From Patescibacteria group bacterium (lineage in GTDB: Bacteria; Patescibacteriota; Minisyncoccia; Phycocordibacterales; CSBR16-119): a stretch of DNA of 55,417 bases. The notes under the pieces were generated by a model, which saw nothing but the letters and a program-made list of their open reading frames with translations, was not told where the DNA came from and searched no databases. Shown here piece by piece: positions 45,864 through 50,434 of the stretch; positions within the stretch are counted from its first letter, which is position 1; each line of letters begins with the position of its first letter. The stretch lies in the NCBI GenBank assembly GCA_030917865.1, contig JAUPTX010000005.1, positions 1 to 55,417 on the forward strand, written 5' to 3'. The position numbers and the translations under genes were made by a program.

Positions 45864-45917
45864 TTTTCTTTAATTTATCTCCTTTAAATTAAAATTTTTG
45901 GCAAAAAACTTTAATTT

Positions 45918-45938
45918 GCGGTTTCTTGTAAAAACCGC
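45918..45938 (+). promoter_or_regulatory. Inverted repeat before the MazG-helicase operon
   Basis: GCGGTTT / AAACCGC with a 7-base gap, 23 bases before the ATG at 45961. It could be an operator or a weak terminator; the following T-run is poor. Confidence 0.4.
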
Positions 45939-45960
45939 CATTTTAAGGCAAAATATAGAT

Positions 45961-46299
45961 ATGGAAGATTTAACTAAAAAAATTATAAAATTTGTGGACG
46001 ACCGAGACTGGAGGCAGTTCCACAATCCAAAAGACACAGCCATATCTTTGGTTTTAGAGGCGACAGAATACTTAGAGCATTTTCAATGGAAAAACCCTGA
46101 AGAGATTAAAAAACATATACAAGACAAAAAAGAAGATATCGGCGAAGAACTCGCAGATATACTTTATTGGGTAATTTTAAACGCATACTATCTCGATATT
46201 GATTTACAAAAAGCTGTAGAAAAAAAGCTTGAAAAAAATGCTCAAAAATACCCGATAGAAAAAGCAAAAGGTCAGCATACTAAATATACCGAATTATAA
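45961..46299 (+). CDS. MazG-like (RS21-C6/DCTPP1-type) nucleotide pyrophosphohydrolase
   Basis: 112 residues from the ATG at 45961, which matches the usual domain start. All-alpha MazG fold: RDWRQFHNPKDTAISLVLEATEYLEHFQW carries the first acidic metal-binding pair (EATE) and EELADILYW the second. These enzymes hydrolyse (d)NTPs, especially non-canonical dCTP analogues, to monophosphates. It is first in a tight three-gene unit: the helicase-protease gene begins 2 bases after its stop. That pairing suggests nucleotide-pool control during DNA damage or phage attack (inference). Confidence 0.9.
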   Translation: MEDLTKKIIKFVDDRDWRQFHNPKDTAISLVLEATEYLEHFQWKNPEEIKKHIQDKKEDIGEELADILYWVILNAYYLDIDLQKAVEKKLEKNAQKYPIEKAKGQHTKYTEL

Positions 46300-46300
46300 T

Positions 46301-48346
46301 ATGTCACAGATAAAGTCTTTTAAATTCGATAAAAATAATTTTAATGAAATCAGAGCCTATCGTTTTGGTAAGAATTGGCCTGTCGTTTATGTTTTAGAGA
46401 ATGGAAAAGACGTTTATGTCGGACAAGCTATAAATGCATATAGAAGACTTAAACAGCACAACGAAAATACAGAGAAACAAATTTTAAAATTAAAAACAGC
46501 TCATATTTTAAGTGACGAAGAATTCAATGTTTCTGCGGCTCTTGATATTGAATCTTGGCTTATTCAATATATGTCCGCTGATCAGGTTTTTACTTTGCAT
46601 AACAAAAATGGTGGATTAAAAAATCACAACTATTATGATCGGCCAAAGTACGAAGCAAAATTTGAAGATATCTGGAAACAGTTTTTGGAAATGGGAATTG
46701 CAAAAAGCACTCTCGAAGATTTAAAAAATACAGACCTATTTAGATATTCTCCTTATAAATCTTTGACAGAAGATCAGCTTTTTACTGCTCGAAAAATTTT
46801 TAAAGATATTAAATCTGGAAAGTCACAATCATATATTGTAAATGGTAAACCTGGAACAGGTAAAACAATCTTAGCTGCTTATCTTTTTAAATTTTTAAAA
46901 GAGAAAGAAGAAACAAAAAAATTTAAAATGGCTCTGGTTGTACCAATGACTCCGCTTAGAAATACAATTAAAAAAGTTTTTGGAAAAATAAAAGGACTAA
47001 GTGCGGGGATGGTAATTGGTCCAAATGATGTGACTAGAGATTCCTATGATCTTATTATTGTTGACGAAGCTCATCGCTTACAAAGAAGAAAAAATATCAT
47101 GGGTATGGGTGCATATGATCAAGTTAATAAAAAACTTGGTTTACCGAAAGAGGCAACCAATCTGGATTGGATTATTAAGTGTTCAAAAAACCAGATATTT
47201 TTCTATGACGAAAACCAAAGTATAAAACCAGCAGACGTTAGAAAAGAAGATTTTAAAAAGCTAAATGCAAAACACTACACACTTTCTACTCAAATGCGTG
47301 TTGAGGCCGGAGAGGAATATATAGAATTCATCGAAGCTTTATTTGATCTAAAGATGCCACAGAAAACAAGTTTTGGATCATATGATTTTAAAATCTACGA
47401 TGATGTAGAAGAAATGGTTTCTGATATAAAAGAAAAAGATAAAAAACATGGACTTTCTCGTGTTGTCGCTGGGTATGCTTGGCCTTGGCATACTAAAAAG
47501 GGCTCAAAATCAAAACAAAAATATGATATTGAAATAGGAAATTATAAAGGTGTCTGGAATTCTACCGCGACAGACTGGGTTAATTCACAAAATGCGGTAA
47601 ATGAAGTCGGATGTATTCACACAGTTCAGGGTTACGACCTAAACTATGTTGGTGTAATTATCGGACCAGAGTTTGGTTATGATAAGGAAAATAAAAAGTT
47701 TTTTGTAGACAGAGAAAAATATCTTGATAGAAATGGACGAGCCGGAATACAAGACCCAGAAGAACTCGATGGCTATATAAAAAATATTTATAAAACTATT
47801 CTTACTCGTGGAATAAAAGGAACTTTTGTTTATATTTGTGATGAAGGTTTAAGAGAATATTTCAAAAATATTTTAGATAATAATTTGATAGATAAAAAAG
47901 AAATAATTATTACAGAAAATAAAATCGTATCTCCTTTAGCAATTGAAGTGGTCCAGATTCCATTAGTTGGTTCTGCACCATGTGGTAACCCTCTTCTTGG
48001 AGAAGAAAACATAGAAGAATATATCGAGGTTGAAAAAAGTAAGATTAAACCAGGTTATAAATATTTTATTCTTCGTGCTACTGGAGATTCTATGAATCGT
48101 GCAGAAATAAATGATGGAGATCTTGTACTATGTCGCCAACAATTAAAGGCTGATACGGGTGATAGGGTAGTTGCTCTTTTGGGTGACAATGTGACAATAA
48201 AAGAATATGGACCACGTATAAATGGAGTTCGTCTTTTGTTGCCAAAAAGTTCAAACAAAGATCATACGCCAATAACACCAGATGAAGGAGATAGTGTGCA
48301 AGGTGTTGTACAGGAAGTTTTAAAAGACGAGGATTATGAAGAATGA
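46301..48346 (+). CDS. GIY-YIG-like nuclease / DUF2075 (Schlafen-group) helicase / UmuD-like S24 protease fusion
   Basis: 681 residues, three domains. (1) GIY-YIG-like, about 25-110: VVYVLENG then VYVGQAINAYRRLKQH. (2) DUF2075 superfamily-1 helicase, about 150-520: Walker A GKPGTGKT (182-189), Walker B IIVDEAH (252-258), STQMRV, HTVQGYDLNYVGVIIG (440-455), TRGIKGTFVY. (3) S24/LexA-UmuD protease, about 545-675: putative self-cleavage site Cys561-Gly562 in GSAPCGNP, nucleophile Ser597 in GDSMN, general base Lys634 in TIKEYG. C-to-S is 36 and S-to-K is 37 residues, the same as UmuD (C24, S60, K97). RecA-stimulated self-cleavage would release a two-domain nuclease-helicase. It lies between a MazG-like and a DUF5872 gene. 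Confidence 0.88.
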   Translation: MSQIKSFKFDKNNFNEIRAYRFGKNWPVVYVLENGKDVYVGQAINAYRRLKQHNENTEKQILKLKTAHILSDEEFNVSAALDIESWLIQYMSADQVFTLHNKNGGLKNHNYYDRPKYEAKFEDIWKQFLEMGIAKSTLEDLKNTDLFRYSPYKSLTEDQLFTARKIFKDIKSGKSQSYIVNGKPGTGKTILAAYLFKFLKEKEETKKFKMALVVPMTPLRNTIKKVFGKIKGLSAGMVIGPNDVTRDSYDLIIVDEAHRLQRRKNIMGMGAYDQVNKKLGLPKEATNLDWIIKCSKNQIFFYDENQSIKPADVRKEDFKKLNAKHYTLSTQMRVEAGEEYIEFIEALFDLKMPQKTSFGSYDFKIYDDVEEMVSDIKEKDKKHGLSRVVAGYAWPWHTKKGSKSKQKYDIEIGNYKGVWNSTATDWVNSQNAVNEVGCIHTVQGYDLNYVGVIIGPEFGYDKENKKFFVDREKYLDRNGRAGIQDPEELDGYIKNIYKTILTRGIKGTFVYICDEGLREYFKNILDNNLIDKKEIIITENKIVSPLAIEVVQIPLVGSAPCGNPLLGEENIEEYIEVEKSKIKPGYKYFILRATGDSMNRAEINDGDLVLCRQQLKADTGDRVVALLGDNVTIKEYGPRINGVRLLLPKSSNKDHTPITPDEGDSVQGVVQEVLKDEDYEE

Positions 48347-48347
48347 C

Positions 48348-48731
48348 ATGAAAAAACCAACACAAAAAAGTGCGAAGAGGGATAATGAAGAGCTTTGGGA
48401 ATATTGCAAAGAAGAAGCTGTTTCAAAGATGGGCAAGTTTTCTGCTCGTGCGATGCAATTTGCTGTGAAGCTGTATAAAGAGCGGGGCGGAGGATATATT
48501 GGCGAAAAGACAGATGAAAATAGTTTGGTGAAATGGACGAAAGAGGATTGGGGATATACAGGCGAGCCAGGGCACAGTCGGTATTTGCCGAAGAAGGCGC
48601 GAGAGCATTTGACTGTCGGAGAGAAAATCGCCACAGATAGAGCGAAGAACAAAGGAACGAAAGCAGGGAAGCAATGGGTGGCTCAGCCAGAACGCATAGC
48701 GAAAAAAACCGCGAAGTATAGATTGAAATAG
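48348..48731 (+). CDS. DUF5872-like protein
   Basis: 127 residues from the ATG at 48348, two bases after the helicase stop; an ATG at 48336 overlapping the helicase end is the alternative. Very basic and hydrophilic. The signature VKWTKEDWGYTGEPGHSRYLPKKARE, then GTKAGKQWVAQPERIAKKTAKYR, matches my memory of DUF5872, found in CPR bacteria and large DNA viruses; function unknown. The KWTKEDWGYTG core and Arg/Lys richness suggest nucleic-acid binding. It is the last gene of the MazG-helicase-DUF5872 unit and ends at a strong hairpin. Confidence 0.75.
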   Translation: MKKPTQKSAKRDNEELWEYCKEEAVSKMGKFSARAMQFAVKLYKERGGGYIGEKTDENSLVKWTKEDWGYTGEPGHSRYLPKKAREHLTVGEKIATDRAKNKGTKAGKQWVAQPERIAKKTAKYRLK

Positions 48732-49444: not shown

Positions 49445-50434
49445 ATGAAGAAAAATCTAAAAATAAATAAAAAAGAAAAAGGTTTAGTGATTTATCAAGC
49501 AAAGAACGGAGCAATAGAGTTTCGTGGTGATTTACAGCACGAGACTATTTGGGCGACACAGGCTCAGATATCAGAAGTTTTTGGGGTTGATCGTTCTGTG
49601 GTTACAAAACACATTAATAATTTATTTAAGTCAAAAGAGGTTGATCAAAAAAGCAATGTGCAAAAAATGCACATTGCAAATTCTGATAAGCCAGTAAGCT
49701 TCTATTCTCTGGATGTTATTTTGTCTGTTGGGTATCGTACAAATTCTGCTAGAGCTATTGTGTTCAGACGTTGGGCTAATGATTTGATAAAAAAATATTT
49801 AATGCGTGGCTATGTCTTAAATAAGAAACAAATACAGAAAAATCACCAAGAATTTTTGAAAGCTGTGGACTCTATCCAAAATCTTTTACCAGAACATGTG
49901 GTCCTCGACCCAAAAGCAATTCTTGATCTTGTTAAAGAATTTTCAAGTACATGGAAGTCTTTGGATGGATACGACAAAGAATCTTTAACAAAAATCGGCT
50001 CTACAAAAAAATCAGTTAAGTTTTCTGCGAGCGAGCTTTACGAATCAATTTCTTTGTTAAAAAAAGATCTTTTGAAGAAAGGTGAGGCAACAGAGATTTT
50101 CGCTCAAGAGAGAGTTTCTGGAAGTGTTGAAGGTATAATCGGAAACGTGATGCAGACTTTTGGAGGAAAGCCGGTGTATCCTACTGCAGAAGAAAAATCT
50201 GCGAACCTGCTGTACTTTATGGTTAAAAACCATCCTTTTGTTGATGGAAATAAAAGAAGCGGAGCTTTTGCTTTTGTTTGGTTTTTAAGAAAGGTTGGAG
50301 TGAGAGGGTATCGAAATATTAATCCGAGTGCTTTGACAGCGATAACTCTTTTGATTGCAGAAAGTAAACCAGAAAAGAAAGATCAGATGATAGCTCTGGT
50401 GACCAATCTTTTGTCTGTGAAAGGGAAGTCATAA
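49445..50434 (+). CDS. RhuM-Doc fusion (virulence RhuM domain with Fic/Doc toxin domain)
   Basis: 329 residues. The N-terminal RhuM-like domain (about 15-130: IWATQAQISEVFGVDRSVVTKHINN, FYSLDVILSVGYRTNS, RRWANDLIKKYLMRGYVLN) resembles phage antirepressor DNA-binding parts. A helical linker follows, then a Fic/Doc domain (about 195-325) with the active motif HPFVDGNKRSG at 263-273. The GNKR form is the Doc type, whose founder phosphorylates EF-Tu; classical Fic enzymes have GNGR and AMPylate. This RhuM/Fic architecture is known in many bacteria as a toxin-like accessory gene. No separate antitoxin gene lies next to it, so the RhuM part may act as built-in control. Confidence 0.9.
   Translation: MKKNLKINKKEKGLVIYQAKNGAIEFRGDLQHETIWATQAQISEVFGVDRSVVTKHINNLFKSKEVDQKSNVQKMHIANSDKPVSFYSLDVILSVGYRTNSARAIVFRRWANDLIKKYLMRGYVLNKKQIQKNHQEFLKAVDSIQNLLPEHVVLDPKAILDLVKEFSSTWKSLDGYDKESLTKIGSTKKSVKFSASELYESISLLKKDLLKKGEATEIFAQERVSGSVEGIIGNVMQTFGGKPVYPTAEEKSANLLYFMVKNHPFVDGNKRSGAFAFVWFLRKVGVRGYRNINPSALTAITLLIAESKPEKKDQMIALVTNLLSVKGKS

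Follow-up and report, generated by a model that had tools for sequence, protein, structure and literature searches.

Self-cleavage of the LexA type is known as a means of controlling transcription or a polymerase subunit. IrvR, a LexA-like protein, autocleaves independently of RecA and in this is an exception among characterized members (PMC7101444). Among defense systems, AbpAB, Hna and Nhi combine a helicase with a nuclease and are activated by phage SSB; AbpAB is also activated by replication stress, and its activation by mitomycin C is independent of both RecA and LexA (PMC10732053). We analyzed a 55,417-nucleotide contig from a Patescibacteria genome (JAUPTX010000005.1, assembly GCA_030917865.1; hereafter the window) encoding a protein in which a LexA-type proteolytic sensor sits on an enzyme expected to cut and unwind nucleic acid. 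No published description of an S24-helicase fusion was found in the open-licence literature searched: the parts are already known, and neither their combination nor the cassette exchange reported below was found there.

Results

A three-domain fusion protein with a MazG-like partner

The protein is encoded by an uninterrupted ORF of 681 residues on the forward strand (46301..48346). The initial annotation read it as a GIY-YIG domain, a Schlafen-group-3 (SLFN-g3) helicase and a C-terminal S24 domain, and all three pass the curated Pfam cut-offs. The GIY-YIG nuclease domain (residues 26-94, 46376..46582, +) gives a partial match to PF01541 over residues 29-65 (2.1e-5, 25.2 bits against a cut-off of 22.6). 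Its catalytic Tyr/Tyr/Arg/Glu set is present in full as Y30, Y39, R49 and E84, and these four residues, together with G41, are invariant in 13 tailed proteins, where H53 is nearly so. The SF1-type helicase (residues 177-514, 46829..47842, +) matches PF09848 (1.8e-70, 238.5 bits, cut-off 24), and its Walker A segment P184-K188 and residues D255, E256, H258 and R259 are again invariant in 13 tailed proteins. Human SLFN11 was the top Foldseek match to the model of the fusion, the best entry for the whole model being the SLFN11 dimer 7zel. A linker predicted to be disordered (residues 528-547, 47882..47941, +; pLDDT < 50) joins this head to the tail, a cassette of about residues 541-681 (47921..48343, +) that matches Peptidase_S24 (PF00717) over residues 554-668 (5.7e-20, 71.6 bits, cut-off 23.3). 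The last 11 bases of the fusion ORF are shared with a small gene (window 48336-48731) that matches DUF5872 below threshold.

On the same strand, a gene for a MazG-like nucleotide pyrophosphohydrolase (45898..46299, +; Pfam MazG-like, 3.6e-16) stops 1 nt upstream of the fusion ORF; as listed it begins at a TTG, but translation more likely starts from an ATG at about 45961. All 24 other complete fusion loci, and 5/5 close tail-less homologs, have a MazG-like gene immediately upstream in the same orientation. On a plasmid of the archaeon Halalkalicoccus, an annotated nucleotide pyrophosphohydrolase precedes a tail-less DUF2075 gene by 5 nt, so the MazG/helicase pairing is not confined to tailed proteins; the Paenibacillus and Lysinibacillus plasmid homologs have no such nucleotide pyrophosphohydrolase neighbor annotated.

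The neighbors of tailed loci suggest a defense island. They include AbiEii (L080), AbiLi/RloB (L072), an OLD/Gabija-like ATPase (L077), a candidate-defense nuclease (L081) and a type II methyltransferase (L076), as well as RhuM-Fic near the tailed loci of the window, L069, L079 and L072. The fusion itself partially matches the PADLOC models Nhi/AbiO (6e-16) and PDC-S14 (3.6e-9). From this neighborhood and family resemblance we infer an anti-phage role for the module. The RhuM-Fic fusion genes correspond to PADLOC PDC-S23 (window 49445-50434; L069 1830-2816; L079 377-1324; L072 8406-9359), and RhuM alone occurs near the MazG/helicase pair in L007 and L009. In G163, a genome of the same order, the region upstream of the module (L083 1934-2974) encodes a DUF4325 STAS-like protein and a MerR-type HTH protein whose C-terminus looks ATPase-like.

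A LexA-like tail predicted to cleave itself

The initial annotation had likened the tail to UmuD. That likeness holds for the Cys-Gly bond and the spacing, C561, G562, S597 and K634 lying where claimed with 36 and 37 residues between site, serine and lysine, but the S24 domain overall is nearer to LexA. In NCBIfam, LexA (TIGR00498) scores 2.2e-22 and 79.7 bits against 2.1e-14 and 53.5 bits for UmuD, and a PDB sequence search gives 2.6e-13 for LexA and 2.6e-8 for UmuD. Both scores fall below the respective cut-offs (110.95 bits for the LexA equivalog, 110 bits for the UmuD subfamily), and no HTH match was found in Pfam or NCBIfam. The Cys-Gly site also occurs in many LexA-like repressors of related genomes. 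On sequence grounds, then, the tail domain is LexA-like overall and only its Cys-Gly bond is UmuD-like.

The predicted self-cleavage bond Cys561-Gly562 (47981..47986, +) and the catalytic residues Ser597 (48089..48091, +) and Lys634 (48200..48202, +) are invariant in 27/27 distinct tails, namely those of the window protein, its counterpart in G163 and 25 more S24 tails on a group-3 helicase, despite tail identity down to about 42%; the serine and lysine are also invariant in 14/14 LexA-like proteins. The cleavage site and dyad are among 20 invariant positions in the 134 of the tail alignment, and the chance that four random positions would all be invariant is 0.0004 if shared ancestry is ignored. 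S24 domains fold and dimerize irrespective of catalysis, and the tail could in principle be an inert relic whose fold is retained solely for oligomerization; the invariance of site and dyad in every tail disfavors such a catalytically dead dimer domain, which we regard as exceedingly improbable. Cys611 (in VLC; window 48131-48133) is invariant in 27/27 fused tails and replaced by other residues in aligned LexA-like sequences, making it a possible signature of fused tails.

The S24 fold, on which the initial annotation had staked its reading, was seen in the profile search and again in the AlphaFold model of the fusion (mean pLDDT 82, about 84 in the S24 part). The modeled domain matches the hyper-cleavable LexA mutant 1jhe, which we take to represent the cleavable conformation of LexA (TMt 0.85, rmsd 2.2), and RecA-bound LexA 8gms (TMt 0.85, rmsd 2.3); the matches to the S119A fragment 1jhc and to nanobody-bound LexA 7b5g are poorer (TMt about 0.75, rmsd 4.2-4.8). 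In the predicted model the tail thus has the LexA C-terminal fold in a cleavable conformation, and these fold matches would bring Ser597 close to the scissile bond. Residue invariance and the match of the model to cleavable LexA together give good support to cleavage competence; the dyad and scissile bond appear to be held by selection, and self-cleavage of the tail is therefore highly probable.

The fit to RecA-bound LexA structures and the flexible linker would also suit a tail whose main task is to recruit the enzyme to DNA coated with RecA, in the manner of UmuD and polymerase V, with cleavage secondary. The invariance of the scissile bond and dyad across tails this divergent argues instead for selection for cutting itself, and we find a mere docking device very doubtful.

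RecA and LexA in fusion genomes

RecA is present in 15 of the 17 fusion genomes checked; it was found neither in the window's own genome (G000; 463 kb, 76% complete, with the window as contig 16) nor in G698 (95% complete). Given the LexA-like form of the tail, RecA is, by analogy, a reasonably likely trigger of cleavage. Self-cleavage might instead be real without being driven by RecA, occurring constitutively or under another stress, with control exerted through fragment stability. The two genomes in which RecA was not found and the RecA-independent autocleavage of IrvR fit this idea, but IrvR is exceptional among characterized members (PMC7101444) and RecA is found in most of the fusion genomes checked; we consider it quite improbable. 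A need for a partner LexA was ruled out: in five fusion genomes (G646, G639, G608, G728 and G554) no other full LexA-type S24 match was found, and the tail therefore needs no such partner.

Distribution of the fusion

The survey for the same three-domain architecture called for by the initial annotation showed that it recurs, over the full length in G163 (67% identity to the window protein) and in further tailed GIY-YIG heads. In a first survey of the phylum (380 genomes), the fusion occurred only in G000, G163 and G340, and the head alone in five close homologs. Within the order, 17 of 397 genomes carry the fusion; the 18 genomes with a GIY-YIG head divide into 12 tailed, 3 intact without a tail and 3 with truncated frames. 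Searching 84,980 species with the tail alignment, in the form of two short peptide patterns that could miss fusions with other S24 sequences, yielded 15 tailed loci, every tail on a group-3 helicase, the remaining 5 matches being ordinary LexA (Oleiphilus). Nine of the 15 loci are labeled candidate-phyla bacteria, five 'bacterium' and one Bacteroidetes; the last label may be a binning error, and the tailed proteins are apparently all from Patescibacteria. A chance motif or an assembly chimera is ruled out by the E-values and the 26 further cases. At G389:C9 (L121, L158, L167), a tailed head is broken into two reading frames near residue 232, by either a frameshift or an assembly error.

We also considered a virus-borne fusion and rejected it, two scans of viral_contigs with the fusion alignments having returned no relative. 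Proteins of the phage collection contained heads or S24 domains separately, never together, and relatives of the head in the plasmid collection lacked the S24 tail. A second S24-enzyme arrangement is found in many Patescibacteria, where a full LexA (HTH plus S24, with an Ala-Gly site) is fused in one ORF to a DNA methyltransferase (about 435-907 aa; L029-L040; L127-L130, L132-L137, L140-L142). Twelve matches of S24 in long frames from the first phylum survey, initially candidates for more fusions, proved to be of this different arrangement.

An exchangeable cassette on two head families

Two head families bear the tail. One has the GIY-YIG domain; heads of the other are longer (about 770 aa) and have a different N-terminus. 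For the N-terminal domain of the second family, of which the AlphaFold model of L070 has a pLDDT of 48, a sequence motif (D...ExK) leads us to guess at a PD-(D/E)XK-like fold. Heads and tails disagree in their relationships: the window protein and L119 are 31% identical in their heads and 86% in their tails, and L072 and L082 are 41% (over a partial head) and 90% identical, whereas L069 and L111 share 84% of the head and 51% of the tail, and L112 and L083 80% and 42%. In the tail tree, the fused tails group together, apart from LexA-like proteins, with modest support (87/88), and within this group second-family tails fall at six separate places among first-family tails, a split forced by well-supported branches. 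The head tree requires 7 changes of tail presence and 10 changes of tail type. The tail is thus a cassette that has repeatedly been gained, lost or swapped across the two head families. The GIY-YIG heads of L077 and L079 have helicase ends resembling those of the second family (GCYxxFVDKExE...FKSR); a crossover close to the TRGxxG motif has apparently left its traces here.

The tail-less homologs bear on whether cleavage would switch the enzyme on or off. Their ends lie near residue 525, showing that a head with no tail is complete, although a cleaved head would retain about 35 linker residues that they lack, a point against equating the two. LexA-type S24 domains dimerize, and dimerization could activate the head rather than restrain it: the tail would hold the head in an active dimer, and RecA-stimulated cleavage would split the dimer and end activity once damage appears, for example sparing the cell's own DNA. 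That the whole model is best matched by a SLFN11 dimer agrees with such an off-switch, but close tail-less homologs share the MazG partner, which argues that the head generally needs no S24 dimerizer, and we judge it unlikely. We favor an on-switch: with complete tail-less homologs at hand, the freed head would probably be a working enzyme.

Discussion

We propose that a MazG-like nucleotide pyrophosphohydrolase and a GIY-YIG/Schlafen-group-3 nuclease-helicase form a two-gene defense-type module. In a subset of Patescibacteria the nuclease-helicase would have gained, on a flexible tether at its C-terminus, a cassette consisting of a LexA-type S24 domain. The tail would restrain the enzyme, for instance as an S24-mediated dimer, until infection or DNA damage produced RecA-ssDNA filaments; docked onto these, it would cut its own Cys561-Gly562 bond through the Ser597/Lys634 dyad, releasing a nuclease-helicase of 561 residues that would be the counterpart of the homologs naturally lacking a tail. 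Certainty drops along this chain, from self-cleavage to the RecA trigger to the whole statement with its direction, and we give the full chain, with self-cleavage, RecA trigger, on-direction and defense module all holding, about an even chance. More tentatively, the protein may be a post-translational SOS effector, in which RecA filaments activate an attached nuclease-helicase by proteolysis and the S24 trigger is transferable among defense heads.

Were this to hold, a nuclease could be switched fast and directly by RecA filaments, with no new gene expression required. That the tail has been exchanged repeatedly between two head families points to a natural plug-in sensor, tailed and tail-less homologs constitute ready experimental pairs, and the use of S24 cleavage beyond repressors and UmuD becomes directly testable.

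The fusion shares features with several known systems. Its head is that of Schlafen-group-3 helicases (PF09848, DUF2075) with GIY-YIG or other N-terminal domains, and it partially matches the PADLOC Nhi, AbiO and PDC-S14 models; the relatives examined in plasmid and phage collections are without its S24 tail. AbpAB, Hna and Nhi likewise unite helicase and nuclease, but a built-in protease has not been described for them (PMC10732053). IrvR-type regulators share S24 self-cleavage outside the standard SOS response, but are transcription regulators with no enzyme attached (PMC7101444). UmuD has the same Cys-Gly bond, the same 36/37 residue spacing and an S24 domain serving a DNA enzyme; it is a separate small subunit of DNA polymerase V, whereas the S24 core of the fusion is a covalent C-terminal tail. 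With LexA the fusion shares the S24 fold, the Ser-Lys dyad and a scissile x-Gly bond, and its tails cluster beside LexA-like proteins of the same phylum; where LexA has an HTH and an Ala-Gly site, the fusion has a nuclease-helicase and Cys-Gly.
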